NCBI GenBank assembly: GCA_022829145.1
Contig: CM040746.1
Location: 9,008,684 to 9,072,683, forward strand
DNA length: 64,000 nt
From: Albula goreensis
Lineage: Eukaryota; Chordata; Actinopteri; Albuliformes; Albulidae
Reading direction: 5' to 3'
The notes beneath the pieces were generated by a model. The model searched no databases. It was not told where the DNA came from and was given only the letters and a program-made list of their open reading frames with translations. The translations under genes were made by a program, and so were the position numbers. Shown here in pieces: positions 4,503 to 55,127 of the stretch; positions within the stretch are counted from its first letter, which is position 1; each line of letters begins with the position of its first letter.

Positions 4503-4589
<87 letters not shown>
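4503..4589. repeat. (CA)n microsatellite, about 43 units
   Basis: Uninterrupted alternating A and C over about 87 bases. Such a long pure tract is likely to vary in length between individuals. Confidence 0.97.
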
Positions 4590-6030: not shown

Positions 6031-6298
6031 TCTGCCCCCACGTGGACAAAGAAAGCTTATTCATCAGAACAGAAACAAGCTAACCACGCTTTTCTTTTTC
6101 TCCAGGTCACTATTATTGTGCATTTGAAGTTATTATGAAATCATAAATATTCTGAGACAGCATTTCTGACAAAAGCTCTCCATTTACCACAATTATTATT
6201 TCACAGTTTTTGTCATTCCTCAAGGATTTTATAATGTGACAACATGCATTACTAAATCATTATTCTGTCTCTGATTTCAGGTTGCTGTGATTCCAGCC

Positions 6299-7510
6299 AT
6301 GCCAACACTTTTGAGAGCTTTGGCCACCTTCGTCCCCTCTCCCTCCTCCTCTCTCCTACTCTTCCTTCTTCTTCTCCCCCTGTCCCTATCATTTCGGGGA
6401 CGGCCACACCAGCAGCACCAGAGTCACCTGCCCTCTCTGGTGCCCCACATGCCCCGCCCTCTCTCCCGTTCCCGATTCAGTGCCCAGGCTCAGCTGGACC
6501 TCACCACCCACTGCAATTCCAGTTGCTACCACCGGGGGGAGCAAGAGCCCAGACGGGACCTGCTTGCTGACCGGCTGGCCTTTGAGACTCTGTACTCGGA
6601 TGGCTCACGGACGCTGACCACAGTGGACTTGGAGGATGAAGAAGAAAGCGAGGGTGGTTATTCAATTGAGGCGATCATGACTGCAAGGCCTCGTCCGGCC
6701 AGGAGGGGGCGATCAGTTCCCAAAAAAAGGCGCAAGCGGCAGATCTATGGTGCCGATGGTCGGTTCAATATCCGTGGCGACAACTTCCTGCTGGACTACC
6801 CCTTCTCTACAGCGGTCCGGATCTCCACAGGCTGCACGGGGGTCCTGGTGTCGCCCCGCCATGTCCTGACTGCTGCCCACTGTGTGCATGATGGGAAGGA
6901 TTACGTCAAAGGCGCTCGCAAGCTGAGGGTGGGCTTCCTCACCCCCCCACCATCCTCTGCTAATGCCACCAAGCCGGCCCCTGCTTCAAGCCTTCTTCCC
7001 CTCAAAAAGCCCCTTGTCCGCTGGGTACGTGTCAAGAGGACCAGGGTCCCCAAAGGGTGGATCCAGGGCCCTCAAGATGTCAGCATGGATTTCGACTACG
7101 CCCTCCTGGAGCTCCGTTGGCCACACCGGCGGCCCTTCATGCGCCTCTCGGTGGCGCCATCCGCTGAGGACCTGGCTGGGAAGCGGATCCACTTCTCTGG
7201 GTTCGACAGCGACCGTCCCGGTGAGCTGGTGTACCGGTTCTGCCCGGTGGAGGACGAGTCCAATGACCTGATCTACCAGCACTGCGACGCGCGGCCGGGG
7301 GCCAGCGGGTCGGGGGTGTACGGCCGGGTTTGGGATGACCAGCTGGAACGCTGGGAGAGGAAGGTCATCGGCGTCTTTTCGGGACACCAGTGGCTGGAGA
7401 TCGACGGAGAAAACCACGACTTCAACGTGGCTGTCAGGTTAACCCCACTAAAGTTTGCCCAGATATGCTACTGGGTGCATGGGAGTCGAGTGGACTGCAG
7501 CAAAGACTGA
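6299..7510 (+). CDS. prss23-like: PRSS23-like secreted serine protease
   Basis: A 403-residue trypsin-fold protein of the PRSS23/PRSS35 subfamily, encoded in one exon. The start ATG at 6299 follows an acceptor at 6280. An in-frame GTG 12 nt upstream is not needed. The N-terminus is a leucine-rich signal peptide (about residues 10-33). A CxxxC pair (CNSSC) and a basic processing site (KKRRKRQIYG) come before the protease domain. The catalytic triad looks complete: His194 in LTAAHC, Asp266 in DYALLEL, Ser336 in GASGSG. PRSS35 lacks the serine, so this fits PRSS23 better. The domain runs to the end with typical blocks (RVKRTRVPKGWI, HFSGFDSDRPGELVYRF, FSGHQW). Human PRSS23 is a secreted protein of similar size whose substrates are poorly known. 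Paralogue assignment among fish copies is uncertain. Confidence 0.93.
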   Translation: MPTLLRALATFVPSPSSSLLLFLLLLPLSLSFRGRPHQQHQSHLPSLVPHMPRPLSRSRFSAQAQLDLTTHCNSSCYHRGEQEPRRDLLADRLAFETLYSDGSRTLTTVDLEDEEESEGGYSIEAIMTARPRPARRGRSVPKKRRKRQIYGADGRFNIRGDNFLLDYPFSTAVRISTGCTGVLVSPRHVLTAAHCVHDGKDYVKGARKLRVGFLTPPPSSANATKPAPASSLLPLKKPLVRWVRVKRTRVPKGWIQGPQDVSMDFDYALLELRWPHRRPFMRLSVAPSAEDLAGKRIHFSGFDSDRPGELVYRFCPVEDESNDLIYQHCDARPGASGSGVYGRVWDDQLERWERKVIGVFSGHQWLEIDGENHDFNVAVRLTPLKFAQICYWVHGSRVDCSKD

Positions 7511-10700: not shown

Positions 10701-12266
10701 ACAAGCAGAACACAGCAAAAAATATAGATATAGCAGATATCAAAACATTAAAATACATGGGAACAGGGATTTGTTATAAATATATGTCACACTTGGAAAT
10801 CACTGTTGTGAATTATACAATTGCATGTCCTAAGACTAATTAGTGATAATGCTTCACATGTGATAGCAATAATGAAGCACAAAGGTGTAGCACCACAATT
10901 GAACCGTATGATATGTGTTACAGCTGGTAAACTTCTTTGACTTGTCTATACTGTTTGCTGGGCGTTCCTTTGTACATTGATATGTCTGCTCTTTTCTGGT
11001 AGGAGCCAGCGCCATCTCCTGTATCAGCTATTATGTACGGTCTTTATTAGTTGAATAAGTTATAGTTTTCGTGTTATCTATTGTTCTCCTACTAAAGTGG
11101 ATGTGGCCATTTGGATAATCTGGTAGGTAATGGGTAGGTTCTTTTGATTTGTTTGGCTTGCTCATTGCTACATGTATTATCTTTTTCTTCCCTATGTGTA
11201 ATTGTGTTGTGGCAAGGGATGGCTTGAGGGCTTGATTGTTTCAACTGTGGTGCTACAGTCTTGTGTACCCAAACTCAGTCTGAAACCATAACATACTGAA
11301 TATTCTGAGAGGTGCATTTTATAAGAAGTGACAATTAAAAATGAAATGTATGTCTAAAACAGAAATGCGATTAAGCCAGTGATCATTCTGCATTATAAGT
11401 GATAAACAAATAGACTGTTGCCAGGATGGAATTAATAGTGCTTGTTCATCTGATTTGGTTGATGTGTGTTGTGAGTAAAAAATGAACAAATGCTCCTCTT
11501 GTGGATTTTGAAAGTCATTGCAGCTACTTCCCTGTTTGCCAATGGTGGAATTCAGGTCACATAACCTACACTCAGCTCTGACTGGTATTTATGAGCTTGT
11601 CAACTGGGAGGTTAGTAGTTACCAGGATTTGAGCCCACTGTAAATGTATTAAGTTTGTGCAAATATAACAGGCTAATGCTGTATTTCTAGTAGGGTGAAT
11701 GGGGATGGGTGCGTGGGTGCTATGAAAACAGCAAAGGTATAGATGAAGGTGGAAGAACTGAAGGCAGATCCCTCTCACAATGTGAAACTGCACAAGGCTT
11801 TGAATCGCGTTTTTTGATATGTGAGTTGGATGTCGAAGTAACAATCCTCCTAATGTAAGCTTCAGTTGCCATGACAGCATGTATCATAATAATATTCCCA
11901 TTTAAGCAGCCAAACATATGGGGGCAGTATGAGACTGTAGTTAAACCTGCATACACTGTAGCTTTTCTCTATGGGTCTGTGTGAAATCCAACACTGAGAA
12001 GTAAGGCACATCCAAAGCATTTGCAGTGCAGTATATTAACAGACATGGTGCATACAGACTACTTTGGACTAAGATGTTCTCAAAATGAGCAAATTCAGTT
12101 CCACTTGCTGAAATCATTCAGCAGTAAAGCTGTGGGAACCTAAATCTGACTGGGAAAGAATTAGACACATCCGCTTCAGGGCAACAAATATTTAATCACA
12201 ATTTACATACACAAGATAATTAATGCATATAATTTAAGTATAATCATTAAAAGGCCAGAGAATGAT
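7734..12266. other. Intergenic sequence between two convergent genes
   Basis: AT-rich sequence between the 3' ends of the protease gene (+) and the TANGO1-like gene (-). A short A tract lies near 8635-8652. No supported gene was found. One coding-like relic on the - strand (10918-11250) is listed separately. Confidence 0.55.
10918..11250 (-). pseudogene. Coding-like relic with one frame break
   Basis: On the - strand a frame of about 74 codons without a stop (11250 to the TAA at 11033-11031) includes PDYPNGHIHFSRRT. Right where it stops, a second frame opens at about 11040 and runs 40 codons to TAA at 10920-10918, including ADTGDGAGSYQKR and ending KEVYQL. Joined, they would read as one plausible protein tail, which suggests a decayed exon or retrocopy with a one-base shift. 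I do not recognise the family. The flanks are A-rich, so chance remains possible. No upstream methionine or clean splice acceptor was found. Confidence 0.3.
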
Positions 12267-12272
12267 TTTATT
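12267..12272 (-). promoter_or_regulatory. Candidate polyadenylation signal for the TANGO1-like gene
   Basis: The + strand TTTATT reads AATAAA on the - strand. It lies about 275 nt past the stop codon at 12546-12548. Confidence 0.5.
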
Positions 12273-12545
12273 GATTATGTATTTAATAGCACAATAAAAA
12301 CTACAGAAAAGAACTCCAGCAAGTAGGTCGAATGATGCAGCTTTCATGCCCTCTCTGTCATAACTGGAAACTATGTACAGCTCTTCTTTTAATTGTTTCC
12401 ATTGTTCATTACTTCCTACAGGTAATTAAGGTAACTGATCTCATTTTTCTAGACAGTGAATAACCATTTGTAATCACATCTTGATAAGACACACCCCGGT
12501 TTACATTAAGGGATAAAGATCCAACAGTTTTTGTGTGTAATGCCA

Positions 12546-15500
12546 TTACATTCTCTTTAAGAAGTTAAGGATCCCCGTGCCTTTGCGTTTGATGGAAGAC
12601 GCAGAGAAGCTGCGCTGACTGTGACTGGGGGGGGAATCCTCCATATCCATGAAGCTCCATTTTTGTGGGATAGTGGAGCCAGTTGGGCCAGTGGAACTGG
12701 ATTCTGTGGCCTCCACATCTGCAGAGACAGTACGCTAGTTCAAAATCTGCTGCTCTGTGAAATTATACTTCACAAACCCAGGTAGCTTTATCTGGCTATC
12801 TTCACAGCCACTTCATAAACTTATTTTGGCATGTCCTCTTGGCTTTATTGCAATGTAAAGAGAACAGAGCACATGGTAGAGGCTGCAGTGCAGAGTGCAT
12901 TGTTGGTTACCGTGGTAGGATGAGCCTTACCTGGCCCAAAAGGACGCATCTCCTGTTCAGAGGTGCCAGGCACTGGTTCAGAGACGGCTCGCTGGAACCT
13001 AGCTAATTTAGCTTTGACCTCATCCAACCTGCATACACGTGGAAAAAACAGAATTCAGACTCTGTCCCTGCTACAAACATCAAGTGCCATAGAATCAGAA
13101 CCAGTGATTTAGAGGTGTTCGATACTGTTACATGGTCCAAGCAAAAAAAGAGCGACCACCCAAGTGCAGATAAATCAGCCATTCGAACAGAGAGTATTGT
13201 AAATAAATATACATAAATCAACAATATATAAAAATAACAAACTTACTTATTTTGGAGGTTTGCTGACATTTTCCTCTCAGCAGCCAATGCTTTTTCTGAG
13301 AACTTTGCTTTCATCTAGAGGCACAGAAGATGTTAACATTCAAACCTGAATAAACAGCTCAAATCAGCTCTCAAATCAACTGATCACCCCCTTACCGAAT
13401 TCTCATTTTCTTCCTTCTCTTCAGCTTCAATCTGGACAGAAACAGATGACAGCGGGCACAAGATCTAATTACCAACATTTCTCAGAAATGACAGTGATTA
13501 AAACAGACGATGTAGAAATGCTGTACAATCACCAATGATTCAATGATTTGAGTAGATGTTACCCACAGTGGTTCACCAACATCAATTATAACATATTCTG
13601 GTATTTGTTTAGAACCAATAAACTATATATAGCTACTCACTAAATGATCAATTGCTCACACCTGTTTAAAAACGTTTGGGAACAGACAGTGTATGAAGGC
13701 CTGTTTCATTTGCTGAAATGGACAAATGGAGCCATGAGCTCTGTCCAAAGATGGCTTTGCGTATGAGTCAGCTGAACAGCCCTGCTTACCTGAGCCAGGT
13801 AGGCGCCCTGCAGTTTCTCACGGTCCTCCTCCATCTCCCTGATCCTCAGGCTGTGTGCCTGCAGCACATGTAGGATTTCTGCGTCCTTTTCCGCCAGCAC
13901 TGCTTCCATCTGCATCACCTTCCTGCAACACAGCGAGCCCAGCAAGGGGATTCCACCACTTAGCCCTGAACCCTCAGCCTCATTCACCTACAAGGTTAAA
14001 CACTAGAACCAGTACAGTATGACCCCCTACCCAAGGAACATGGTCTCATTTGGAGCTTACCCAGATATCAGAGCTGAAAGAGTACAACATAACGTGTCAT
14101 ACACTGAAGCTGAGGCCTTAGTGCACCTTTGTTGACATTTGATTTCAAGTTGGTGATGTTTGCAAATTTTAAATGACAACATTACAAAGATGTGACACAC
14201 ATCTCCTCTTGTGCAAACCTGGCCTTCCCTGGACATTGTGTATTGCTCATTACTTACTGTTGGAGAGCCTGCTCTTGTTGTTGGGAAACCTCGATAATTT
14301 TTTGAAGATCTACTTGGAGGGCTGGAAAAAAAAGATGTCACAATTTACATTGGGAAATTGAGATTAATTATTTATGTTATTTAAAAGGTGTCTGTTTGAG
14401 CAGTGTACCTTCCAGTTCTTGTGTCTTTTTCTTCTCTTCCCTCAGTTTTTTCAGGTACAGATTTCGTTCCTGTTCAACTACATAAACATGCTGGTCCTGA
14501 AACAAAAAACACATGATTGAATCCAAACTTTTTAACTTCATTGACTGTAAATGCACAACCTGTATCTTCAGCTAAGATGTGTATCTGAGGTATTTTACAG
14601 ATATTCAGTGTCATAATAAAGTGGTAAGGTCTGACTCAATTCAGTCATGCAAAGCAACAATTTTGTTGCCATGGAGCTCTAAAACCTAAAACCTTATTAG
14701 TCACTTGTTCACATACCAATTCATGCGAAGATTTGTTAGGCAGGTTTGTTTGTGCCACTGGACGACCTATAAGAGAGGGACAAGTCAGTGATAATAAGAG
14801 GACTCAGACTGAATGAACTGGATGCTGAACTGAGATCTGTGTGCATCAGTGTCTAATAAAGCAAGAGAAAACAGGGCAAGGCTTTTCATCATGTGACTGT
14901 ACCAGAAAGGGTTAAAGCTTCAAAGGGTGGAGACTCACTTTTCTTCACAGGGGTCGTCACCCAGTAGGAACAGCCAGGGGTGGGCTCGGACTGTAGTCTC
15001 TGGAGAGCAGCCAGCTCAGCCTTGACCTCATCCAGCCTGTGAAATGGTGAAAATCACATCTTTCAGACCACAGAAACAGCAGCCCTTTCTTTAAGGCAAT
15101 TTTATCCACCCCAACAATTTTATCCAACCCCACCCAATAATTATCATCTAATAGTCACTAAAGAGCCACTTAACATTTAGTCCTGGGTCACTGCTCACGC
15201 TTGTGTTTGCCTGTAACCCTTCTAATACATTTTGGACTGTAAACAAACTCACTGCTTGTGGAGATTTGCCACCTCTGTTTTATGTGCTGTCAGTGCATGA
15301 TCAGCTTTTGTCTGGATGGAAAAGAAGGAAAGGGAAAAGCAAATAAACCATCTGTCTTGGACAACGATGTTGACTCACAAAACTACTTATGTCCTTCTTA
15401 CCAAATTCTCCTGTAACGTCTTCTGAAGGGAATCGATCTTTGGAAAAACAGATGAAAATTAAATGTGTATCCAACAAACAAAGTCAGAGAAGAATTAAAG

Positions 15501-18500
15501 GCACTCAACCACATTATCTAGTGAACAACTATGTTGTCAATGAGATACTTTACTGTGCACTATGCAAAACAGTTTGACTAAAAAAAAAAATCAAATCCTT
15601 CTGGACAGATCCCTCTAACATGGCTGTTGAATACACAACTTCCAGCCATATTCTAAGAACTGCATGAGACTGTAGTCATGGTGGGGTGTGCAGCATTAGC
15701 ACTGGAGGCATTTGTTCACCTCGGCCTTGTAGGACAGCTCGGTTTTCTTATGCTGCTCCTCAATGGTTTGAACATTTTGTCTGTGAGACCTGAATGCTTC
15801 CTTCAGTTTAATGTCTTTATCACAATGTTCAGAATCCAACTGAGCTGACATGCTACAAGAGACAAAATGGCGGCTTCTGGTTACCAAGGCACTAACTGTC
15901 AGATCCTAATTCCTGTAACGTTGAAACCTCAGCTCTGTCAATTAGTGGGACAACATGCACTTCTTAACAGCTTGAATTACAACTTGAATTCAAAGCATTC
16001 TAATCTGGATGCTGATGTAGTACACTGCTTGGACGTTCTACAGTAAAATATGTATTTTATAACTTTTATTTTTCTTTGTGTGTTGTACCTGTTCTCTGTA
16101 TGCAAACTAAAGATGAATATGGGAAAATGCATCAATATAAAGGTATGACACTTAATTTCTGCACACATGCTAAATGTCATGTGATGCACACTACCCATAA
16201 TTCATAGCATGTTGCTTGCTACTTACTTCTGCAGATCCTGCTCTTTCTGATGGCATTTGTCATTCATCTTTTGCAGTTCAGTTTGGAGGGTTGCAGTGAG
16301 CTGTTCCAGCTGGGACTTTTCATTTTTTACAGCATCTCTGTCCTGCTCCAGTGTTTGGTTTTTTGCTAAAGCACAAATGAACAAAACTCAGACACAGGAA
16401 GTTGAAATGAATCATTTGGTTTTTAAAAATGGCTCTCTGGGCAGCATACCTGCCAGCTCCCAGGTCTTTCTCTCCTCTGCCCTCAGTTTCTCCAGGCATA
16501 CATTTAGCTCTTCAGCTGATTTTACGAGCTTTTCCTGCTACACAAAACACATCAGTGAATCCAGAGTTTAACTTCTCTGACTGTGAACGCATTGCCTGCA
16601 CATTCTGTTTGGAGTAGCTGAGATAACATACCCATTCATTGGAGGAACTATCAGGCAATGTTTGTGTCACTGGACGACCTATAAGAGAGGGACAAGTCAG
16701 TGATAATAAGAGGACTCAGACTGAATGAACTGGATGCTGAACTGAGATCTGTGTGCATCAGTGTCTAATAAAGCAAGAGAAAACAGGGCAAGGCTTTTCA
16801 TCATGTGACTGTACCAAAAGGGTTAAAGCTTCAAAGGGTGGAGACTCACTTTTCTTCACAGGGGTCGTCACCCAGTAGGAACAGCCAGGGGTGGGCTCGG
16901 ACTGTAGTCTCTGGAGAGCAGCCAGCTCAGCCTTGACCTCATCCAGCCTGTGAAATGGTGAAAATCACATCTTTCAGACCAGAGAAACAGCGGCCATTTT
17001 CTTTAAGCAAATTTTAACCACCCCAACCCTGGAATCCAAGGCTATCACAATCTCAGATGCTAACCTTTATTCAGCTACGTGTTGAACCTTAAATAATTAT
17101 TATCTAATAGTCACTAAAGAGCCATTTAACATTTAGTCCTGGGTCACTGCTCACGCTTGTGTGTGCCTGTAACCCTTCTAATACATTTTGGACTGTAAAC
17201 AAACTCACTGCTTGTGGAGATTTGCCACCTCTGTTTTATGTGCTGTCAGTGCATGATCAGCTTTTGTCTGGATGGAAAAGAAGGAAAGGGAAAAGCAAAT
17301 AAACCATCTGTCTTGGACAATGATGTTGACTCAAAAACTACTTATGTCCTTCTTACCAAATTCTCCTGTAATGTCTTCTGAAGGGAATCGATCTTTGGAA
17401 AAACAGATGAAAATTAAATGTGTATCCAACAAACAAAGTCAGAGAAAAATTAAAGGCACTGAACCACATTATCTAGTGAACAACAGGTAAGTATTCATTT
17501 GTGTAAATGTTATGTTGTCAATGAGATACTTTACTGTGCACTATGCAAAACAGTTTGACTAAAAAAATCAAATCCTTCTGGACAGATCCCTCTAACATGG
17601 CTGTTGAATACACAACTTCCAGCCATATTCTAAGAACTGCATGAGACTGTAGTCATGGTGGGGTGTGCAGCATTAGCACTGGAGACATTTGTTCACCTCG
17701 GCCTTGTAGGACAGCTCGGTTTTCTTATGCTGCTCCTCAATGGTTTGAACATGTTGTCTGTGAGACCTGAATGCTTCCTTCAGTTTAATGTCTTTATCAC
17801 AACGTTCAGAATCCAACTGAGCTGACATGCTACAAGAGACAAAATGGCGGCTTCTGGTTACCAAGGCACTAACTGTCAGATCCTAATTCCTGTAACTTTG
17901 AAACCTCAGCTCTGTCAATTAGTGGGACAACATGCACTTCTTAACAGCTTGAATTACAACTTGAATTCAAAGCATTCTAATCTGGATGCTGATGTAGTAC
18001 ACTGCTTGGACGTTCTACAGTAAAATATGTATTTTATAACTTTTATTTTTCTTTGTGTGTTGTACCTGTTCTCTGTATGCAAACTAAAGATGAATATGGG
18101 AAAATGCATCAATATAAAGGTATGACACTTAATTTCTGCACACATGCTAAATGTCATGTGATGCACACTACCCATAATTCATAGCATGTTGCTTGCTACT
18201 TACTTCTGCAGATCCTGCTCTTTCTGATGGCATTTGTCATTCATTTTTTGCAGTTCAGTTTGGAGGGTTGCAGTGAGCTGTTCCAGCTGGGACTTTTCAT
18301 TTTTTACAGCATCTCTGTCCTGCTCCAGTGTTTGGTTTTTTGCTAAAGCACAAATGAACAAAACTCAGACACAGGAAGTTGAAATGAATCATTTGGTTTT
18401 AAAAATGGCTCTCTGGGCAGCATACCTGCCAGCTCCCAGGTCTTTCTCTCCTCTGCCCTCAGTTTCTCCAGGCATACATTTAGCTCTTCAGCTGATTTTA

Positions 18501-21500
18501 CGAGCTTTTCCTGCTACACAAAACACATCAGTGAATCCAGAGTTTAACTTCTCTGACTGTGAACGCATTGCCTGCACATTCTGTTTGGAGTAGCTGAGAT
18601 AACATACCCATTCATTGGAGGAACTATCAGGCAATGTTTGTGTCACTGGACGACCTATAAGAGAGGGACAAGTCAGTGATAATAAGAGGACTCAGACTGA
18701 ATGAACTGGATGCTGAACTGAGATCTGTGTGCATCAGTGTCTAATAAAGCAAGAGAAAACAGGGCAAGGCTTTTCATCATGTGACTGTACCAGAAAGGGT
18801 TAAAGCTTCAAAGGGTGGAGACTCACTTTTCTTCACAGGGGTCGTCACCCAGTAGGAACAGCCAGGGGTGGGCTCGGACTGTAGTCTCTGGAGAGCAGCC
18901 AGCTCAGCCTTGACCTCATCCAGCCTGTGAAATGGTGAAAATCACATCTTTCAGACCACAGAAACAGCAGTCATTTTCTTTAAGCAAATTTTAACCACCC
19001 CAACCCTGGAATCCAAGGCTATCACTATCTCAGATGCTATCCTTTATTCAGCTACGTGTTGAACCTTAAATAATTATCATCTAATAGTCACATAAAGTGC
19101 CATTTAATATTGAGTCCTGGGTCACTGCTCACTCTTGTGTGGGTCTGTAACCCTTCTAATATATTTTGAATTGTAAAGTAACTCACTGTTTGTGGAGATT
19201 TGCCACTTCTGTTAACAATTATCATCAAGTAGTCACAAAAGAGCCATTTAATAATAACACACTGCTATGTTCCACACTTGGGCCTTTGAGTAACCCAAAG
19301 AAATTATGGGTAGCAAAGTAACTCACTGTTTGCAGAGATCTGCCGTTTCTTTTTTGTGTGCTGTCAGTGCACAATCAGAGGCACAAGCTTTCATCTGAAG
19401 GGAGAGGAAGAGGGATTAACCACCTGTCTTGGGCAAAGGCATTGGTGAACAAAAATGCTCGATTATGTTGCCCTTACCAAATTCTCATGCCATTTCTTCT
19501 GAAGAGATTTTATCTTTGGAGAGAGAGCAGTGACAGTTAGAGCCATACATACACATCTACTAACTCCACTGTACTGTACAAATTTGACTCTTGTGGAAGG
19601 TTGTGCAATTTGGAGACAGTTCTTCACCTCAGCCTTGTAGGACATCTCAGTTTTCTGATGGTCACTCTCAATCTTTTGGACATTTTGTTTGTTAGACCTG
19701 ACCAGCTCCTTCATCTTCAACTCGCTGTCGCGACGCTCAGACTCCATCTGAACCACCTTCCTGCAACAGAGAGTATGGAGGCCCCAGGTAACCAATGAAA
19801 AATCATTCTCACATCCATAATATTGAGATGTCCTCTCTGTCAGTTATCTCAGCCAACGTGGTATGCTGTCTGGTACATCCACAGTAAGTATAGACTACCC
19901 CTACCATCATCTCCACCATGTGCTTATTGTCATTTGTTAGATACATATGGATAAGATCCAGTTCCTGCACCCATGTCCTCAATGCCATGTGTACACAGAT
20001 CCCATCTTTCCCTGGCCATTGGCCCGTATACTTGGCTGGTTGTCACTTACTGCTGGAGGGCCTGCTCTTTGAGGTGGCACAGCTCATTCATGTTCTGCAG
20101 TTTGCCCTGCAGGGCTGCAGCCTGATGTTCCAGCTGGGACTTCTCATCCTTCACAGCATCTCTGTCCTGCTGTAGGGCTCGGATTTTCTCTGGAGTGCAA
20201 ATGGTCACAATTCAGATACAGGAAGTGGAAATGAATCATTTGGGTACTAAAATACTCTCTTAGCAGCATACCTATCAGCTCCTGTGTCTTCTTCTCCTCT
20301 GCCAGAAGTTTCTCCAGGAACAATTTCTCCTGTGACCCCTGTTCAGCTGGGGGAGAGCTGACCTCTGACCTGTAAAATGGTGAAATCACATAAAATCATG
20401 ACCAACGGAGCAGCATTTTCCGTGAGTAATAAGCGCGCGCTCCGAAGTCATGATCTGAGTCCACTGAGCACGCTATCACCATTTCAGATCATGCTATTGA
20501 CCTTTTAATTGACTACTTAATTTAAGTTGCTTTTTACAGTTAATTTAAAAATTAAGCCCAGGGCCATTGCTGGGTCTATGACCCATTTAAGTAGTCTGTT
20601 TGTGAATAAACGTACTTATTCTGAGGAGTTCTGATTTCTTTTTTGTTTGCCATCAGTGGGCGTCCAGTGGGGACAGCTTTTACCTGGAGGGGAAGGAATA
20701 AGAATTAGCATTCTGTCCTGGGGAATGACATCGACTCACAAAACTACCTGTTTTCATCCTTACCAAAGGTTTCTTCTTTTTCAGAGCATCAATCTGTGGA
20801 GAGACAGGTCATATTCAGTACCACATATTACATCACAATCAACAGAAAAATTCAAACCGGAGTTCTAACCACTTACTACGCAGGCTTCCGGGGACAGTCA
20901 TATAGAAAATGCATCACACTGTACTTGTGTGATTCTTGAGAACAGGTAGGTGCAGTATTTGGTATTTGTGTTGTAGGTAGTTTGCTAACCTCAGAAATGA
21001 AAGAGAGAGCCATCTTCTCACGCTGCGTCTCAATCGCTTGGATCTTCTGTCTGTGACACCTGAGCACCTCCTTCACTTTGAAATCTTTTTCACGACGCTC
21101 AGAGTCCACCTGAGCAGACTTCCTACAACAGAGACCATGGAGGCTTTGGGCTACCAATGCACCAATCTTTCTCACACTTCACCATCAGTACAATTTACAA
21201 GGTTTCAGATGACAATATGGTGTGCTGCCTGGCTTGTCTAAAGTTGTATTTCATCCCTGTTTTCTCAGAGTGTACATTGCCTGCTCCTCACATGTCCACT
21301 ACAGATGTACATGGAACACTCTAGATCCGACAGAAGTCCTGAATTAGCCTTAAGACAATGAAATATGTATGCAAAGCCATGTTTTCTCTGCAGTGTTGTT
21401 TGCTACTTACTGTTGGATAACCTGGTCTTTCTTCTCACACAGCTCACTCAGATTGCTCAGTTTTCGTTGTAAAGTTGAGATCTGAACTTGCAACTTGAGC

Positions 21501-24500
21501 TTTTCATTTTTCTGACCATCACGGTCCTCTTCCAGTGTTTTGATTTTTTCTGAAGCACAAATAAGAGTCACATCTTGGACACATGGAACTGAGGTGGATC
21601 ATGATGGTGCGATGAGAGGTTATCTTTGAGAAACGTACCCTCCAGCTGCTGGCTCTTGAGCGCCGATGTCCTACGTGTTTCTTCATGCTTGCTTTGCTCC
21701 TCTTTGATGACCTTAGCAATCTTCACATGACAGAAACACATCAGAGAACATCACCGCCTGCATGACTGTATCTACAACTGTACCTGATACATTTTAAACT
21801 CATGTGTCAAAATAAAAAAAAGATTATTTGTTTAAACATAATCAAATAACTGTATCTGCAATGATGCAAACAATCAAATAACTTCATCAAGATTTAAAAA
21901 AAGATACAACACTTGTCATTTTCACGGTGGTAACTTACTAACTCATCCACATTACTACCAGATGTCTTGGAGGCACCACCTGGAAGGAAGGAACCATCAA
22001 ACAAGGGTGGAAAACGATGCATCACAGGAGTCTAAAATCACCACCAGCCAAGGAAGATACACATGCTGGCTCATGTGTATTTACTTATATAATGATTTGG
22101 TAACTAAAATGCAGATTAAGTGTCAAAGGCAAGGGTTTGAAACCATTAATGAAAAAAAACACCCGTCAATCATTAAAAGGGATACCTAGCTCATGAGTCT
22201 TGTTTGAATAAACAAGTCTCATAATACCAATAAGCACAATATGGACTGCTGTCCAGGATTAGTGCATTTTTGGTGCGTTGTGACCGAAAGGAAGAGTAAG
22301 TCTCAGAGAGCAGGAACTCACGGCCAGAGCAGGTTGAGCAAGTTGAAAACAGTGGGTCCTGGAATCCAGCCAGATTTGCGCTGACCTTGGATAGCCTTAA
22401 AAAAAAAAAAATTTATTTTACAGTTTAGATTATATTCTATTATACAGTATGTTCAAATGATTTTTATTCAACCTGTATTTAACCAGAACAAAAGTCCTTG
22501 GGAAAAAACTAATTCTGTGGAGATCTGGCAAATGAATCAGCTTTAAATCCTGGAGTTAACCACATGACACAAAACATAGTTCAATAGTGCACTATATAAT
22601 TCACACTCTCTGATAAACGTTTGGAAAACAATTACACTCTTCATGAATAGTGTTCTGTACCAGGGTCCTTTTTCCAGCTAAATGGTAACTATGTTTGAGT
22701 CTCCAGCTACTAATACGCTGTTACAATTTCTGTACAACTGTTTGCCATGTAAAGGGTTAGCACACCCAAAAAAATTTAAATTATCTGATTCTGTAGCTAT
22801 TTTTAATCTAACAAGGGCGAACAATTGGAATGGATGGATGTACAGCAGTCAAAGCGAGTGCAATGTGAACGTTAACATCACTTAAACGTTTTGGTGTAGC
22901 CACCCTTCATCATTCCTGTGCCATTACACTGCTCAGTGCACATAAATGACCTATCTCAGTGGGTTTTTGTGGCAGGGTAGCTCACCTTTTAGACAGGCTG
23001 GCCGTCTCTTTCTTCTCTAGCGCGAGGGCACGTTGTGAAGAACAGGCTACAATCTAGCAGCAAAAGAGCATTAAATATTCTGTGTCACTCTCTCTCAAAG
23101 ACACTGCGCTGCACTGCTGTATTTGTAATGAACTCTTTATTACCCAATTGTCCTGTGCTTTCTTCTTCTGTTGAGTAATCTGTGGTGAGACATAAGTGAC
23201 AGTGGAGGAAAATGTGAAAATGCTGAAAATAATTTAGACAGTACAGCTAAACATGACAGCAGTATACACTAAATTAATAAATGATACATATGGATGAAGT
23301 ATGGCACAGACTGTTCTACCTGTCACTGTGTCAATCTGATATAATCACTTCCAATTTTGAACTCAACATGAAGTGTTTGCTCAGGTAAGGACTGGCACAC
23401 CTGATTTTTAAGGGCAGCCTGAGCTTTCTCATTCTTCTCATTTATGTCCTGGATCTTTTGTTTGAAGCGCCTTATTTCTCCCTTGGGCCCTGCACCTTTG
23501 ATCTCCTTTACACTCTGGTCCACCTGCTCCTCAGCCAGTTTCCTGTAGCACAAAGAGCATCCAGACTTCAGATAGGGAGTCCTGTTTCTACATCTCAGGT
23601 AGGTTTGCTGTACCAGACACAGCCCATGGCAGATGCACTGTGTCCTGAACAACAAAGCTACTGATTTGATCAACAACTTTGAAACACAATGTACTTTGGC
23701 ATGGAAATCTGTACTCACAGAGAAAAGCAGCATGCCAATATAACTGTTATGTATGACGCATATGTTTTCTTGATTAGCAAAGACAGTCTATATACACAGA
23801 TTGTCATAAGAGCAATAAGAAGTTCAAAAACAACAAGATCCAAAACACAAGTTCTTTTCCCATTTGCAGGGAGGCATGTGAAAATATGTCTCGCTAGGGG
23901 ACATTTTTACTCCACACTCACTGCTGTAGTGCACTGTCTTTCTGCTGACAGAGAAGGTTCAGCATCTGGACTTCCTCCTTGAGTGTCTTGTTCAGATTTT
24001 CTAGGTGGCTTTTCTCACTTTCCAGGGAAGATTGGTCATATTCCATCTTCTTAATCCTCTCTGTGGGAAAAAACAGTCACAAATCGCAAATGGACCAGGG
24101 GTCCCTTCAACAAAGAATGCTCTGTCATTTACTGATTTTGAGAAGCTTTGATGGGAAAATCCAAATGCACTTCCACATTTTGATATAAAACACAAATAGG
24201 TTAAGGATGGACTGCAATAGCCTATAATATCATCACATCCATTGTAGTTTAAACTAATCTTCCCTGTTCCGGTTATGTAAGAGAAGACAAGATGGATATA
24301 CTAAGGGCACTGACTGGGACTGTAATAATTATCAGTTATGAGAAATGTTCAATGTACCCTCCAACTCCTTGCAATTTTTCTCCTCCACCTGCAGTTTCTC
24401 CTCATAAGATTTTCCATCTCCTTCCAGAGCACTTTTTCCCTGTGTTAAAACATACATGGCCATTCACTCTCACAGCCTGCATTTACAGCTACACACCATG

Positions 24501-27500
24501 GAGGGAAAAGTCAAAATTGTGTCTTAATTGTTTTAATGGCCATTTTACTGATGTATTAACTTACCCAATTCTTGCCATCTGGAAGAGAGACAATAAAAAA
24601 ATGAATGTGTCAGTTAAACATCAGTCAACATATTGGCAAAAAGGAACAATAAAAAAATCTCCATTCCTAAAAATGTAGTACCTTGAACTACTGACACCTT
24701 ACTGAATAGGCTCAGAGTAGACATTTTGTAGTGTAGGGGCTAAATCAGAGCATACTCATTTCTTTTGTCTTTTCATTTTCATTGTTGTGAACCTCTAACC
24801 TTTGGAGGAACTGTCTCCTGTTTAAATAATTTCCATTGTTCATAGAAACACTGTGAAACTTCACCAACCAGACCACAACCATTTTGGGCACCATGATACT
24901 GTGACAGTGAGGGATCGGTTTTAACGGGCAGGAGCTTACCTTTTGCAGGAGGGGGCACAAAGACAGGCTGCTGAATTTCTGTCAGTTGTGTGGTGACCTC
25001 AATCACCCTGCCAGCGGATAAACAAACACTTTTCAGACAAACGCCAGTTTCACCCGACCAGAAAACATTATCATCCCAAGTGATCTGAAACATTATCAAG
25101 TCTCAAGCCTTCAGAATGAAGACGGGGTTTTTCATTGACAAACTCAGGCCATTGGAACGTTCTCACTTTTGCCGTAGGTCGGCGGTCTCTTTTCTCTCAG
25201 CTGCCAAGGCATGCTCAGCCACGAGAGTGTTTGTCTGGAGGCCAGAGGAAGAGATGACAAACTGTCCAAACAGCCATTTCCCAAAAAACATCCATGAAAA
25301 AAATCTATGCTCTTTCTTACCCGATTCTCCTCTGCCTGCCTTTTGTGATATTCCATCTATGGAGCAGAAGGGAAAGTGACAGTCAGTACAAAACCCTTAC
25401 ATGTGCAACACTTGCAACAGGACGCGTAAAACTCCAGGGTTAATTCTCTGACCTGCATCTTGAGGAGGTCTTCCGCTTTCTTGTGGTCCTGCTCCATCTC
25501 CAGGATCTTCTTTTTGTGAGACTTGAGCAGCTCCTTCACTTTTGACTCCCCCTCACCACACGGCAGAGACTCTGCAGTCCTGCAATACAGGGGCACAATT
25601 CTTGATTTATAATTATTTAAAGCAGATATATTTTGTCTGTCCTTTGTATGACTTGAGGTGTCACAAATTAGTGTTAAAATGTGTTCTATAGCACACTGTG
25701 TTAGCTGTCTGGATTTAATATTTTATATACCGTCAGTGCTGCAGCAGCCAAAAATCAGTTGAAGGATTCATTAAAGCTGGATGCTAAGTCCATAGTAAGT
25801 GTAAAAATATTGTTTTTCAACATGACAGCCCTAAAACTTACTGCTGTGGTGCGTTCTGCATTTTCTGATGCGCGCCCTTTTTGTCCAGCTCCTGCTGCAA
25901 GACTCTAGCCTCCAGCTCCAGCTCCATTTGAGCCTTTTCTGTCTTCAAGACAGCTAGGTCCTGTTCAATGGTTTTGATTTTTTCTAAGGCAAACAAACAG
26001 TTGAGATACAGGATGGATGCAGATACATGAAGATGTCACATAACACTAATGACTCACATCAAAAATATGTAACCTCTAATTTTACTTGTGTGTTGTCGCT
26101 TCACAAGATCACAGAGAAGTCATGCCAGTTCACCGAAGGCTCATTCTCTACTTCATGGCCAATTTCTCAAGCTATGTGTTGAATGCACTGCAATTATTAG
26201 ACAAGAAATACTGTGCTGCACACCTTCCATTTGCTGGACCTTGGACCTTTCGGCTCGGAGCTTCTTGAGAAGCTCACGTCGCTCCTCTTTATGGGTGAAA
26301 TTAAAGGTCTTAACCTGTCAGAATACACGTCAGTTATTACTGAAGCCCCAACTATTCACATCATAACTGCCATATGCCTCATTTCTGCCCTGACACATCC
26401 CTATTTGTCCTTTTCTGTAACAGTTCCCCGCCAACGGTTGACTTTAATCTTGCTAATAGTCAGGGGAGATAAAACTGGTGAAGCTCCTGTTGAATAGTTA
26501 TTTCCCCTGGCATGTTTCAGTAGTTTTGACTCTGCAATGTGTCTTAAGAAGGTTTTATTTGGATAATGTCGACATGCGTATGATAGGTTAGCTTCATCAA
26601 ATCAGTTTTGCCTTCCGTGCAATTCAGAGCAGTTGACACTTCACAGGCTTTTATTTTTTGGCATGTTTATAATAAGACTTACAATCTTTCGCCAAAAACA
26701 GATCAAAAACAGGATGTTGATGAACACCACTATCACCAAAGCCTTCCAAGACAGTCCATAGCTGCCATAGTCTGGATGCCATTTTCCTGGGTCGCTGGCA
26801 AGGAGCTGAAACAAAATTAATCCAAATTCAATCAGGGCAAAACCTGTCCATTGTGCACTGACAGAGCTTTTTACTGTGTCCTCATGTACATTGAACATAC
26901 AGTAAAAATGTATTTTTAAATTAACACAGATAAAAAAGAATCCACATTTGCTTAGTGGAGCTAACCCTCCCAGTTTCTGATGGCAGATAATGCCATATTT
27001 TAGGCCATCACGACAAAGGTCATTTATTGTGATGGCTTCAGCAGTATGAATGTAATGTGTCTTGAATTGTAAAGACAGTAGACTATAATTGATCCAACTG
27101 TATATGATTAACATATATATGATTGACACAAAAAAAATCATCATCTCATACAGAGCAAAACACACTTAAAACCGTTTCCATAACCCTCAAGAAATGAAAT
27201 CTCTATTCTAAAAACAGCTGACTCACCAATGTAGCATAATAATGCCAAAGCTCCTGCAGCCGATGGAGAAAGTCCCTGACATCCAGGTGCCTGAACAAGC
27301 ATTTGCCCTGTGGGTCTAAACACAGAGTTTCACATTTGAAGTGTAATTACAGTGATGACTAAAATGAAGGTGGAGCTACATTCAGCTGTCAGTTATCTAT
27401 TTTAACCGAACAAACTTATTTTAACCAATCAAAAAATGATTTACTGTCAACAGCCATTGCAGTAATTGGTCATATTCGTTTAGCGATAGATACTGGACGG

Positions 27501-28149
27501 TAACATTAGCTCTGCCCATCCACATTCAATGAAACGTCACTTCTCCAGCAGCAGGCCACCAACATCTGTGAGATAACTTTCTATCTACCCCCCTGTTCCA
27601 CTCTTGCTATTTGCTTGGTGAAAGTTGTGAAGTTCAGAGTAAGGAGCCGATCTCCATTTTTATTATCTTTTTTTCCGACAGAACAAGTGTCATCACCATA
27701 AGACTGCTTTACAGGTGTAGGCTGCTATTCAAACTTACCTCCTTACACAGGACATTTAAAAAGGACTTTTATCTAGCTTAAACTGAGTCAGGAAAGCAAT
27801 AGATGTTATAGCTTGTTGTTATCTGTCCCCTGTTTCGATATCATTCAAAAGTACTTTTGTCACCCATATCAGTGATCGGGCATTTGGCATTTTTATTTAC
27901 TCGGGGAGCTCGAATAACCTGATTTACATCTTTTTTTTTCTTTTGGCTAATCTGACCAAAATTACTTGGTAACTGATACTTTTATGTTCGCAAAGGTAGC
28001 TGGCTGTTTAACTTGACGGTCAGATTTCCCATCGGGAATGGATCTGGTCGATGTTGCTTACCAGAACATTGGTTGTTCGCGATGATGGGTAGCGCGCCTA
28101 AAAGAAATAACAAAAGAAAAATAAACAATTTCCTATAAAATGTCGCCAT
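12546..28149 (-). CDS. TANGO1/cTAGE5-like membrane coiled-coil protein with repeated exon cassettes
   Basis: By hand I spliced 50 coding exons (ATG 28149-28147, TAA 12548-12546) into one frame of about 1453 residues. Every junction has AG/GT borders and compatible phase. Order: signal peptide (1-24), short lumenal part with two cysteines, membrane helix (about 81-97) after WHPDYGSYGLSWK, then a long coiled coil made of about seven repeat modules, then a short basic tail ending GILNFLKRM. The membrane segment and the coiled-coil unit (Leu-Asn-x-Leu-x-Gln-Gln-Lys-Glu, then ENW, then AxAAExxxxANLRxK) match the MIA3/TANGO1 and MIA2/cTAGE5 family, which organises ER exit sites for bulky cargo. The family's SH3 (MIA) and proline-rich Sec23-binding regions are absent. 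Function in ER export is inferred from family only. Exact exon use needs transcript data. Confidence 0.82.
12931..14321 (-). repeat. Coding module 7, shortened (exons 45-49)
   Basis: Exons: 14258-14321, 13790-13922, 13396-13431, 13247-13314 and 12931-13028. The first is 64 nt instead of 139: its 5' half is missing, but it still ends QEQALQ and keeps phase. The rest follow the usual 133/36/68/98 pattern. The final coding exon (12546-12718) encodes a Ser-rich, basic tail unlike the proline-rich tail of TANGO1. Confidence 0.77.
14409..16365 (-). repeat. Coding module 6 of the TANGO1-like gene (exons 38-44)
   Basis: Exons: 16227-16365, 15720-15852, 15402-15437, 15253-15311, 14939-15036, 14717-14766 and 14409-14496. 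The first five encode almost the same peptides as module 5 (R to H and H to N changes in the 133-nt exon). The last two diverge, which places the right end of the recent duplication near 14767. Confidence 0.8.
14767..18654 (-). repeat. Recent tandem duplication of a seven-exon cassette
   Basis: Two adjacent units, about 14767-16678 and 16679-18654, agree almost base for base through exons and introns. The intronic frames at 15977-16198 and 17954-18175 translate identically at an offset of 1977. Unit lengths are about 1912 and 1976. The first lacks a roughly 60-base piece seen at 17035-17095 and again at 19010-19070. Similarity continues in a third, partial copy up to about 19080. Intron identity means recent origin or ongoing gene conversion. 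Confidence 0.92.
16450..18342 (-). repeat. Coding module 5 of the TANGO1-like gene (exons 31-37)
   Basis: Exons: 18204-18342, 17697-17829, 17357-17392, 17209-17267, 16850-16947, 16632-16678 and 16450-16537. The 59-nt fourth exon is 9 nt shorter than in other modules, a change shared only with module 6. Landmarks are LQKMNDKCHQKEQDLQ, LQENL and TEVANLHK. Confidence 0.8.
18426..20189 (-). repeat. Coding module 4 of the TANGO1-like gene (exons 24-30)
   Basis: Exons: 20051-20189, 19628-19760, 19478-19513, 19327-19394, 18827-18924, 18608-18654 and 18426-18513. Peptide landmarks are LQNMNELCHLKEQALQ, KKWHENL and LDEVKAELAALQ. From 18924 downward the unit is nearly identical to modules 5 and 6. Confidence 0.78.
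19187..19208 (-). pseudogene. Remnant of a duplicated 68-nt exon
   Basis: On the - strand the 22 bases AAGTGGCAAATCTCCACAAACA match the 3' end of the 59-nt exons at 17209 and 15253, and a perfect donor (GTGAGT) follows. The 5' part of the exon is gone, but an AACAG lies directly upstream. Inclusion would shift the frame, so it is best read as a dead exon left by the cassette duplications. Confidence 0.6.
20272..21549 (-). repeat. Coding module 3 of the TANGO1-like gene (exons 19-23)
   Basis: Exons: 21411-21549, 20990-21122, 20764-20793, 20616-20683 and 20272-20369. The third is 30 instead of 36 nt and ends KKKKPL, so the usual ENW/ENL is lost. The fourth has lost most of the conserved residues. 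The module has only one 98-nt exon where others have a linker exon, a microexon and an 88-nt exon. It is the most worn unit, yet still in frame. Confidence 0.72.
21639..24060 (-). repeat. Coding module 2 of the TANGO1-like gene (exons 12-18)
   Basis: Exons: 23922-24060, 23401-23542, 23144-23179, 22986-23053, 22322-22395, 21939-21979 and 21639-21720. The first exon (EEVQMLNLLCQQKDSALQ) and the third (QKKKAQDNW) are the clearest matches to the TANGO1 coiled coil. The sixth encodes a Ser/Gly-rich linker. Confidence 0.75.
22435..22505. repeat. Possible interspersed repeat fragment
   Basis: The text 'ttcaacctgtatttaaccag' followed by 'aagtccttggg' resembles 53930-53980 ('tttgaccttttacttaaccag'). 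It is probably one end of a dispersed element inside an intron. Confidence 0.3.
24358..25983 (-). repeat. Coding module 1 of the TANGO1-like gene (exons 5-11)
   Basis: Exons: 25842-25983, 25453-25579, 25321-25356, 25167-25234, 24940-25007, 24565-24578 and 24358-24439. The fourth (AEHALAAERKETADLRQK) is very close to the TANGO1 ANLRHK block, so this is among the least diverged units. The sixth is a 14-nt microexon (DGKNW) that keeps the phase but is the weakest call of the set. Confidence 0.75.
26224..28149 (-). other. N-terminal exons 1-4 of the TANGO1-like gene
   Basis: Exon 1 is 28062-28149 (signal peptide, 29 codons plus 1 nt), exon 2 is 27227-27315 (lumenal, contains KCLFRHLDVRDFLHRLQEL), exon 3 is 26683-26805 (membrane helix) and exon 4 is 26224-26314 (basic, charged start of the coiled coil, residues 101-130). 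All donors are GT. The helix is followed by W-R-K, as expected for a cytosolic continuation. The lumenal part is only about 55 residues, so the protein resembles the short, SH3-less forms of the family. Confidence 0.8.
27369..27560. repeat. Dispersed repeat, copy 1 of a pair (other at 60353-60550)
   Basis: Shares with 60353-60550 the ordered blocks GTGGAGCTACA, AGCTGTCAGT, TTAACCAATCA, GCCAATGCAGT-like, 'attggt' and a GCTC(T/C)(G/T)CCCA block. It lies in intron 1 of the TANGO1-like gene. Neither copy encodes a protein. Confidence 0.55.
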
Positions 28150-29988: not shown

Positions 29989-32900
29989 CCACGGAGAGTA
30001 GCGATGCCGGGGTGGCGAGCAAGAAAAAACATCTCGGAATCCCCGAAGCGGTCTTTGTGGTGAGCAAATCGGCGGTTGACTGTAAAATCTCAAACAACTT
30101 GCTGAAAACTAGCGGCATTCTGCATTCAAATTGTCGCAGAACAAGTCAATGTGCCCGGCTTTGTCATGCGAGCCAGGTAGCCGTTACCAGTTAACGTGCT
30201 AACGTTAGCCAGCTAGCTAGTTCTCCTTTTAAGGCAGTTTGTCGAAGGCAGCTAACGATAGCTAGCTAACAACGGTTTACCTTGACAACTACCTAACAGG
30301 AAAGCTAAATGCTACTGTTAGTACAGTGAAGTTGAGCCGCATAATTTGCGCTAAAGAGTCTCACTTACAAGACCATGCGTTAGCTAGCCTAACGTGACTG
30401 TCTTGGTAGCTAGCGAGCAACTGAATACGGCACGGGTATTGTTCTAACTATAAAACGTTCTAACGCTAATTTAATAGTTAGTTTAATTATGTAATGGTCC
30501 TTAGTTAACTGGACAAAAATCTTCATACGTAACTTCATTGTTAAAGTTACTTTGCTTCCCTGCTTAATGTGTGAATTTATTCAGTTAGCTCACTAGCTGT
30601 AAAGGCTGTCCGTACACTGCCTCGAAGATCCCACCTCTAAGTCAGCATAGTTTTAGAGATATTTGCCTCTCGTTGCAGTATTTCGAATTGAACCTTCATA
30701 TTGCCATTTCTGACAGTCTCACAACAGGTTATGGACAAGTAACGTTAGAAGATACCAACTGCTTAACATTTTCAAGCGGGAGCACTTGGTTAGAAATAAT
30801 CCCTTTTCAGTGTGTCCTTTCCACAGCAGGTTGATGTTCCCCACAGGATGGTACATTGAATCAAGTTCAGTGCATACCTTACAGTATCAATGCTTCACAG
30901 TCACCTCCATAAATGGAAGGGGGTTCAGAAGATATCTCGCACAGGCTTAGCCCAAGTGCCTAAATCAGTCAGTTGGGCTAAGTCACAAGTGATTGGTAGC
31001 TCATTAACGCAGGTTACTGAACCTATCTGTTGATCTGACTGCCTGTACACTTGCTTTCCGTGTTTCCTATGTAGGAGGATGTGGACTCGTTCATGAAGCA
31101 GCCGGGCAATGACACAGCCGACGTAGTGCTCCGGAGACTGGATGAGCAGTATCAGAAGTACAAATACATGGAGCTCAACCTGGCCCAGAAAAAACTGAGG
31201 TAGAGTTGCGTCCACTAACTGAACATGAGAAGGACTGTTTAATATTTGCACATGAAGTATATGTGTGCAAGTGTGTCATGTCAGTAGAAAGCATTATCTC
31301 TCACACTGCAAACTTAGAATAAGTCAAACAAAATATTGCATCTGTCACGCAGCAAGTAATGGTAAAATGTGACCTATTGTCAGCTTTCAATGTGCATTGT
31401 TTCTTTTGACAGGGTTATAATTATGACATCAGAACTATGCAGGAGTAATTTCTCATGCTGATGTGGTGTAACTCTGTGTAGTTTGCAGGGATATGCTGTT
31501 CTGATTTCCTAAGGGACAGTTACTACTTCTGATGAATCATGAATCTCAGACAATGGTTGCATGACATGATTAACTGCCACAGCCAACCAAATCAGTCCTC
31601 AAAATTCTGCAGGCACAAACCAAATTTCAGAAAGCATAGGCCAGAATAGTTGGATATCCTGGCACCCTACAAGAGTCCGAGTATCTAAAGTGCAGATCAG
31701 GGGCCAGATTTAGCAAAGCACTTGCCACATGTTAAAATTTTTGCCCATGCAATTTCAGTAACATATTTGTGGTTGGAGAACACTAACAACCTAAACCAAT
31801 CACATGCTCTCTTAGTATTTTAACATCAGGCCCTGGGTGGGTTGACATACTCAAGTGAGAACATCCATTTCCTATGACATTGCCTATGGTTTGTCATTGG
31901 TTTTATTAATTTTTCTGAAACCCATGGCAACACAACTGCTTGTGCAGTGTGTGTTGTGAACTGCTTGTGGCAGCTGTAGTTTATGACAGTTCAGACTGAG
32001 TGGAATGTATGTTATGTACAACAGGAATGGATGAGGAGGACTATCTGTTGTCTGGCTTGCCACCATCTGTCTCACTCAGCATACTCAAGTAGCCCACTAA
32101 TATGTGTTCCAACAGTTAAGCTGTGTTTCTTCATGTACTCATTAATGACTGCAGAAGATTTCCTGTGTCCACACACAAAACATTTCACAATGGTCAATCT
32201 TACAAGAAAACCATGATTGGTGTACTCATGCAGTTGGCTTAATTGAGCAACAATAACTAGGAGAACAGAACCCTGCATATGCATTTGCGTTCCAGTCATG
32301 GAGGTGCCCCACACCTGATGTACAGCAAGTTTTATTTATTCCCATTGACCCATCTCCTGACCCTCAACACCCTGCTTATGACCCCACAGTTCCAGAGCCC
32401 ACAGGGAATATAGGTGTACCTTCCCAGCACTTTGTGCATAAGCAGTTCATCCTTTAGCGTAGTATGTATGCAGCATTGTAGGTATAAGTACTGGTAACTG
32501 AGGAGGGATTACAGCCCTGGGCTGGGTGCCATGGCCATCATTCCCTAGTGAACAGCCCGATCCAGACCAGCTCAGCAAAAACAGTGTTCTTCCAACATCT
32601 TAAATTACATAATACAGGCATACAACTTAGCTGTGCTAAGGCTAATTAAGGTGTGATTATAGCAACGTCCCAAATGTAATTGCATTGTTTGTAGTGTATA
32701 ATTGTGAACATTGCAATATTGTTTATATATATATGTATATTTTTTTATTATTATTTATTTATTAGTTTTTTCATACATTGCACTTCCCATACACTGTTGG
32801 TGGGCGTACAGGACACTGCAGGATGGTGATAATGTACCATCATTCCTGGTTTTTCAGGTTAAAAAGCCAGATTCCACAGATCAAGCAGACGTTAGAAATT

Positions 32901-43328: not shown

Positions 43329-49560
<6,232 letters not shown>

Positions 49561-55061: not shown

Positions 55062-55127
<66 letters not shown>
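55062..55127. repeat. (AAT)n microsatellite, about 22 units
   Basis: Uninterrupted AAT/TAA repeats over about 66 bases. Confidence 0.97.

Follow-up and report, generated by a model that had tools for sequence, protein, structure and literature searches.

A membrane-anchored, TANGO1-type predicted protein with seven CC2-like units in Albula goreensis

What might a protein do that carries one coiled-coil block of the TANGO1 family many times over and, beyond a membrane anchor, few other parts of TANGO1? The question is raised by a 64,000-nucleotide (nt) stretch of Albula goreensis DNA (hereafter the window), in which a minus-strand gene runs from its ATG at 28149 to the end of its stop codon at 12546. 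A preliminary description of this gene had proposed a TANGO1-family coiled-coil block occurring about seven times in a row. Here, we match that block to the CC2 domain, through which TANGO1 and cTAGE5 bind each other (PMC5851698). We tentatively favor, at a rough probability of 45%, an endoplasmic reticulum (ER)-anchored, jointed poly-CC2 arm that would dock on TANGO1 and cTAGE5 at ER exit sites, copy number tuning its reach and valency. This reading is preferred because the membrane anchor is kept and CC2 is multiplied, while other parts are absent.

The gene and its repeated block

The exon model was derived from splice sites and phases; acceptor-donor pairs were scored first and borders were then set by hand, with the target length known beforehand. 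It comprises 50 predicted exons, with GT..AG ends at all 49 introns and the frame kept across every junction, and its 4,362 coding bases specify 1,453 residues with zero internal stops or frameshifts. This agrees with the approximate length given in the preliminary description, which had no exon list. The first three exons encode a signal-peptide-like segment, a short predicted lumenal stretch, and a membrane segment; one exon series then recurs seven times in frame, each unit on its own exon set as had been described. Exon sizes per unit were 82 to 98 nt (a), 139 to 142 (b; 64 in unit 7), 127 to 142 (c), 30 or 36 (d), 68 or 59 (e), 68 to 98 (f), and 14 to 50 (g). Two units are incomplete, unit 3 being without f and g and unit 7 without g and with an exon b of 64 nt only. 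Borders between g and a lie in phase 0, and the e/a border of units 3 and 4 in phase 2. Since relatives in other species match most exons individually, the array is no chance chain of open frames. The features are listed below, with bit scores from the CC2 profile described thereafter.

28062..28149, minus strand: exon SP, start codon and predicted signal peptide, residues 1-29; hydrophobic 19-residue windows start at residues 1-10
27227..27315, minus strand: exon L2, short predicted lumenal stretch, residues 30-59; phase 1 to 0
26683..26805, minus strand: exon TM, TANGO1-type transmembrane exon (YGLSW..FWRK), residues 60-100; tblastn matches to Erpetoichthys TANGO1 and Aldrovandia P0023
24565..26314, minus strand: unit 1; a 26314-26224, b 25983-25842, c 25579-25453, d 25356-25321, e 25234-25167, f 25007-24940, g 24578-24565; 18.5 bits
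21939..24439, minus strand: unit 2, the most TANGO1-like; a 24439-24358, b 24060-23922, c 23542-23401, d 23179-23144, e 23053-22986, f 22395-22322, g 21979-21939; 96.3 bits
20616..21720, minus strand: unit 3, without f and g; a 21720-21639, b 21549-21411, c 21122-20990, d 20793-20764, e 20683-20616; 23.7 bits
18608..20369, minus strand: unit 4; a 20369-20272, b 20189-20051, c 19760-19628, d 19513-19478, e 19394-19327, f 18924-18827, g 18654-18608; 68.0 bits
16632..18513, minus strand: unit 5; a 18513-18426, b 18342-18204, c 17829-17697, d 17392-17357, e 17267-17209, f 16947-16850, g 16678-16632; 27.8 bits
14717..16537, minus strand: unit 6; a 16537-16450, b 16365-16227, c 15852-15720, d 15437-15402, e 15311-15253, f 15036-14939, g 14766-14717; 24.4 bits
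12931..14496, minus strand: unit 7, without g; a 14496-14409, b 14321-14258 (75 nt below most other units), c 13922-13790, d 13431-13396, e 13314-13247, f 13028-12931; 22.6 bits
12546..12718, minus strand: last exon, Ser-rich tail ending KRKGTGILNFLKRM and stop; proline-rich domain absent
12267..12272, minus strand: candidate poly(A) signal AATAAA about 275 nt past the stop (motif only; 11501-12545 scanned)

Exon b of unit 7 (14258-14321, 64 nt) is full-length in the Albula glossodonta protein, so 75 nt have apparently been lost here without a frameshift; the intron ahead of it is 87 nt.

To identify the repeat, a profile built from the seven a-e units was searched in the window protein and 22 retrieved proteins. 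It matched a single place (E < 1e-3) in each of 19 TANGO1/MIA2-type proteins, for example Erpetoichthys TANGO1 at 1483-1642 (E 1e-34) and rodent MIA2 (6.5e-15 to 9.6e-16). The matched place is the CC2 position, past CC1 and ahead of the proline-rich region. These 19 proteins are not independent, including as they do seven isoforms of one Erpetoichthys gene and several Peromyscus isoforms; 17 are named TANGO1 or MIA2, the name of P0011 is cut off, and P0017 is nameless. We take P0011, from beaver, to be MIA3 on the basis of its length; our tree places it with rodent MIA2 (support 94). The reciprocal profile, from the CC2 segments of 7 of the 19 TANGO1/MIA2-type proteins, recovered all seven units at the scores listed, while the highest score among 50 decoys with shuffled heptad blocks was 13.9 bits and neither the reversed window protein nor Erpetoichthys CC1 gave a match. 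The heptad-block decoys, along with the relatives in other species, exclude a chance origin of the array. The family link put forward in the preliminary description is thus supported by profile searches in both directions between the product and MIA2/MIA3, and by the membrane exon. Its "ENW" signature fared less well; the tryptophan is kept in unit 2 (QDNW) but lost in units 1 and 3 to 7, which read EENR, KKPL, HENL, QENL, QENL, and NENS, respectively. Exon f resembles the sequence following CC2 in TANGO1 (LAALQR..PTPG here vs. LAALQRPGLIKPTPG in Erpetoichthys), and because of this match the multiplied block is, judged from sequence, CC2 plus the exon that opens the proline-rich domain, now a linker between units.

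We also scrutinized the window protein for the remaining TANGO1 domains. The membrane exon is of the TANGO1 type, with the family's GLxW followed by a hydrophobic stretch ending in W, and tblastn aligned it with Erpetoichthys TANGO1 1169-1225 (E 1.8e-4) and Aldrovandia P0023 2-54 (E 4.4e-8). No CC1 was detected by BLASTP with Erpetoichthys CC1 as query (best E 0.31 in the window protein; Salvelinus TANGO1 control, 6e-32), an absence on which the preliminary description had not remarked. Its statement that SH3 and proline-rich regions are lacking was borne out. No BLASTP match to SH3/MOTH was found in the window protein at E <= 10 (control, 1e-50), and PPP occurs just once, at residue 273, with a Pro content of 2.8% overall; full-length counts in four MIA2/MIA3 proteins gave 5 to 12 PPP positions, overlapping ones included. 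Pro makes up 9.0% of the last 89 residues vs. 24.6% of the 342 residues past CC2 in Erpetoichthys TANGO1; on these counts a proline-rich tail of the TANGO1 kind is absent. The best SH3-like tblastn match in the window, at 4704-4775 on the opposite strand (E 0.023), was taken as chance. PPP motifs bind the gelsolin domain of Sec23 (PMC7594496), and the sole one here (VFVPPPAK), in the linker after unit 1 (25007-24940), is a possible single Sec23 contact. It is retained in A. glossodonta; Megalops has one near the C-terminus and Aldrovandia none.

Relatives and growth of the array

Three protein searches were made. The first returned 19 proteins, one from A. glossodonta, two from Megalops atlanticus, and 16 with TANGO1/MIA2 names or PF07653, and the second, with the longer Megalops protein as query, returned the two Megalops proteins and three salmonid TANGO1; these scored the 7,991 and 7,975 candidates sharing most words, and the absence of other fishes there means little. 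The third, using residues 350-456 of an 896-residue query and scoring all 183 candidates (lengths about 493-1,568 only), found Megalops, Aldrovandia affinis, and A. glossodonta. All poly-CC2 proteins among the matches listed are elopomorph (Albuliformes, Elopiformes, and Notacanthiformes). The array is therefore not a one-species oddity but occurs in three elopomorph orders.

The closest relative is the hypothetical protein JZ751_003651 of A. glossodonta (P0001), in which most exons of units 1 to 4 and 7 are matched individually. It differs in having five annotated units, no membrane part, and another C-terminus, with no counterpart of exons 2d-2g, and looks like an incomplete model. M. atlanticus has two such arrays, MATL_G00202270 (P0002), with eight units (nine pieces, two from one unit), and MATL_G00260990 (P0003), with seven (eight pieces, the first unit cut); Megalops units 4 to 8 expanded independently. 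P0002 has a hydrophobic start, judged by eye, and a membrane segment matching the window protein. The two are 88% identical over 77% of P0002 and lie on separate large contigs, indicating a later gene duplication in tarpon. Residues 24-62 of P0002 are a possible weak remnant of TANGO1 SH3/MOTH (E 0.035) which, if real, would suggest that the cargo domain was lost stepwise. In A. affinis AAFF_G00097460 (P0023; 43% identity over 563 aligned positions), the membrane exon leads directly into unit 1; this entry, partial and on a 19 kb contig, has units 1 to 3 only. Pfam gave no matches for P0001 or P0002. Dismissed as coiled-coil likeness below curated cut-offs were NPIP for P0023 (E 2.7e-5, 24.5 bits, cut-off 27.5) and Filament for P0003 (E 0.0051, 16.9 bits, cut-off 40), and the two sole matches of the window protein, Antiterm and DUF2695, both sub-threshold, were likewise set aside. 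A Protein Data Bank search with window residues 1-282 gave nothing convincing (best E 0.083).

In a 35-unit alignment, the exon c stretch lacks 7 residues (unit-2 type) or 10 to 11 (others) in 30/30 elopomorph units and in none of five MIA2/MIA3 CC2, which points to one founder unit that carried the deletion and was multiplied afterwards. An unrooted maximum-likelihood tree (JTT+G4) was made from the 35 segments. Fragments below 40 bits or 90 profile positions were dropped, exon a of unit 7 was omitted, and the TANGO1/MIA2-type proteins were represented by 5 of the 19. Unit 1 of all four species formed one clade (support 92), as did unit 2 (100); by this tree both are older than the split of these elopomorph lineages. 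Megalops units 4 to 8 formed a clade of their own (support 100), so the array appears to have grown separately there, and the neighborhood of unit 3 was weakly grouped (46 to 87). The five MIA2/MIA3 CC2 were a clade separate from the 30 elopomorph units (support 100), and the elopomorph gene is likely a third locus beside MIA2 and MIA3.

Window units 5 and 6 were sisters (support 100) with no A. glossodonta partner. Exons 4f-5f and 5f-6f are identical at 694/698 positions with zero indels (451/455 for exons a-e of units 5 and 6), and the introns of this block pair differ by 17 substitutions and 10 indels over 1,302 aligned bases, a single intron accounting for 12 of the substitutions and 5 of the indels. 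The difference in indels between exons (0 in 698 bases) and introns (10 in 1,302) gave a Fisher p of 0.018. These comparisons indicate that the last block was duplicated recently. The duplicated segment, f-g-a-b-c-d-e, is in phase 2 at both ends, and hence gain or loss of such a block keeps the frame. The near-identity could instead be an assembly artefact, the real count being six or fewer, and the five-unit A. glossodonta annotation, none of whose units groups with 5/6, would fit this. We consider it quite improbable, as the intron differences go beyond a simple assembly echo, the window contains no N, and the A. glossodonta model, lacking exons 2d-2g, is perhaps itself incomplete.

The ratio of nonsynonymous to synonymous substitution rates (dN/dS) was 0.25 to 0.59 in 19 of 21 unit pairs, the other two being saturated; the values are rough, most dS being high and the ratio for units 5/6 resting on four differences. 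The short exon b of unit 7 and the missing f and g of unit 3 might mark a decaying or unexpressed TANGO1-family copy enlarged by tandem duplication, but this is very improbable given an open frame of 4,362 coding bases, GT..AG ends at every intron, dN/dS below 1 in all measurable pairs, and collinear relatives in three orders.

A proposed docking arm and its alternatives

A COILS-type score exceeded 0.5 at 905 residues in 14 segments, compared with 37 to 328 residues in 20 shuffles. Fully extended, at 0.15 nm per residue, the coiled coil would measure about 135 nm. Coil gaps fall at all five f/g linkers and at eight other places inside units, mostly near exon c, and unit 3 has no predicted coil past exon b. 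Hence, the "very long rod" of the preliminary description stands as regards a long predicted coil but not as a continuous one. A structure model of Aldrovandia P0023 has helices at 21-108, 117-203, 214-301, 303-383, and 402-547, interrupted where unit 1 meets unit 2, where unit 2 meets unit 3, and once within unit 1; its confidence is low (pLDDT 70.5, pTM 0.21, four sequences), and it supports helices with breaks only.

TANGO1 without CC2 does not bind cTAGE5 and forms misshapen rings, and CC1 serves self-association and tethering to the ER-Golgi intermediate compartment (ERGIC) (PMC5851698). From this background and the domain content we infer the topology, pairing, linking, and ring effect of the arm, which go beyond the sequence. 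The TANGO1-type segment would hold the protein in the ER membrane with the arm extending into the cytosol. The best-conserved units, 2 and then 4, would pair with the CC2 of TANGO1 or cTAGE5, and the more diverged units may add weaker contacts and reach. Several receptors could thereby be linked around an exit site, making the TANGO1 ring wider or steadier for bulky cargo. The protein itself would neither capture cargo nor recruit much COPII, because the lumenal cargo domain and the CC1 tether are absent and there is one PPP motif. Because duplicated blocks preserve the reading frame, copy number would be free to change, tuning valency and length.

The top CC2 match is unit 2 both in the window protein (96.3 bits) and in Aldrovandia (91.5), Megalops P0002 (76.0), and A. 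glossodonta (71.2, incomplete model). Fairly close scores are reached by unit 4 of the window protein (68.0) and, in Megalops, by units 3 (69.7) and 7 (65.6); in Megalops P0003, where unit 2 is cut, a different unit leads (71.2). This distribution favors few strong putative docks plus reach over seven equal ones. Several points weigh against a docking arm. Identity of the units to CC2 is just 31 to 41% (Erpetoichthys TANGO1) or 22 to 31% (Peromyscus MIA2), one unit in seven retains the ENW tryptophan, and no Pfam family matched the window protein. Units 1, 3, 5, 6, and 7 may be merely spacers, since they score just 18.5 to 27.8 bits, and a special role for unit 2 is apparently not general, because Megalops units 3 and 7 score almost as high. 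Docking would, moreover, be a property carried over from the CC2 of TANGO1 and cTAGE5.

The preliminary description had envisaged a spacer or tether. As a passive device of this kind, the array would be an ER-anchored, mostly homotypic rod that sets the distance from the ER to the ERGIC or Golgi, its CC2 origin being irrelevant to binding. Drift of five of the seven units far from the CC2 consensus, the extent of predicted coil, and a copy number that varies among lineages would all fit. We regard a spacer as somewhat unlikely, since a unit 2 close to CC2 in Aldrovandia, Megalops, A. glossodonta, and A. goreensis would be needless for pure spacing, and no second membrane-binding end is established; a conserved basic C-terminal tail common with Megalops is not claimed, 77 of 2,000 shuffles being as good (738 of 2,000 for the second copy). 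In calling the rod one "without the usual cargo- or Sec23-binding ends," that description was right about the SH3 and proline-rich regions but overlooked that what has been multiplied is the very domain by which TANGO1 and cTAGE5 bind each other, which makes docking a better guess than pure spacing.

Retention of the binding block with other domains missing would also suit a decoy or brake, whose CC2 units, unaccompanied by CC1, SH3, or proline-rich ends, would hold back ring assembly by binding TANGO1 or cTAGE5. A decoy, however, has no need of seven units, and the Megalops expansion (support 100) and the recent block duplication here hint that length or valency brings some benefit or is, at a minimum, tolerated; we therefore judge this role distinctly unlikely.

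Further extending the docking arm, the gene could be a third TANGO1-family member, evolved in elopomorphs and acting as a CC2 ruler; the number of units would then determine both the number of receptors joined in a row and the width to which an ER exit carrier opens, in service of the massive gelatinous matrix of leptocephalus larvae. We hold this to be unlikely. Hyaluronan-rich larvae are described in elopomorphs (PMC11165803), among them conger, eels, and elopiforms. A tie between the gene and secretion of this larval matrix is possible, and the candidate gene has so far been met just in fishes whose larval matrix is unusual. Eels have leptocephalus larvae, though no eel protein was among the matches of the third search (183 candidates, lengths as given above). 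This null weakens the leptocephalus link, and hyaluronan is not known to be a COPII cargo.

Surroundings and comparison with known systems

Elsewhere in the window, the following features were recognized.

6275-7507, plus strand: trypsin-like single open reading frame, 411 residues (Pfam Trypsin_2, E 6.5e-9), presumably prss23-like
31075-35171, plus strand: vbp1 exons, found with a human query
49072-49371 and 43329-43685, minus strand: Ras-family exons, which we take to be rab39b

Simple repeats comprise a perfect 30-base tandem repeat (48362-48423, 2.1 copies), a long run of AC (4503-4589), and one of TAA (55062-55127). The window gave no match to an Rfam family.

Among the papers listed on TANGO1/cTAGE5, on TANGO1 in Elopomorpha, and on MIA2/MIA3/TANGO1 duplication, taken as titles and abstract openings and with subscription papers thinly covered, no multi-CC2 protein appeared. 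Medaka is described as having two family genes, MIA2 and MIA3, whose products both contain a single CCD1, a single CCD2, and a proline-rich domain (PMC12702677), and human family lists add MIA, OTOR, and several CTAGE copies (PMC7829582). A natural protein with many CC2 units and few other TANGO1 parts would offer a ready test of how the valency of CC2 and the length of the arm act at ER exit sites; deletions have been used to address this for CC2 (PMC5851698).

Like the window gene, TANGO1 (MIA3) has the membrane exon, the CC2 block, and the post-CC2 exon with its PTPG motif; unlike it, TANGO1 has a single CC2 together with SH3/MOTH, a long lumenal part, CC1, and a proline-rich tail. cTAGE5/TALI (MIA2) likewise has the CC2 block, and in its cTAGE5 form the lumenal part is short too, at 38 residues (PMC5851698). 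It differs in its single, less similar CC2 (22 to 31% in Peromyscus), its CC1, and its proline-rich domain.

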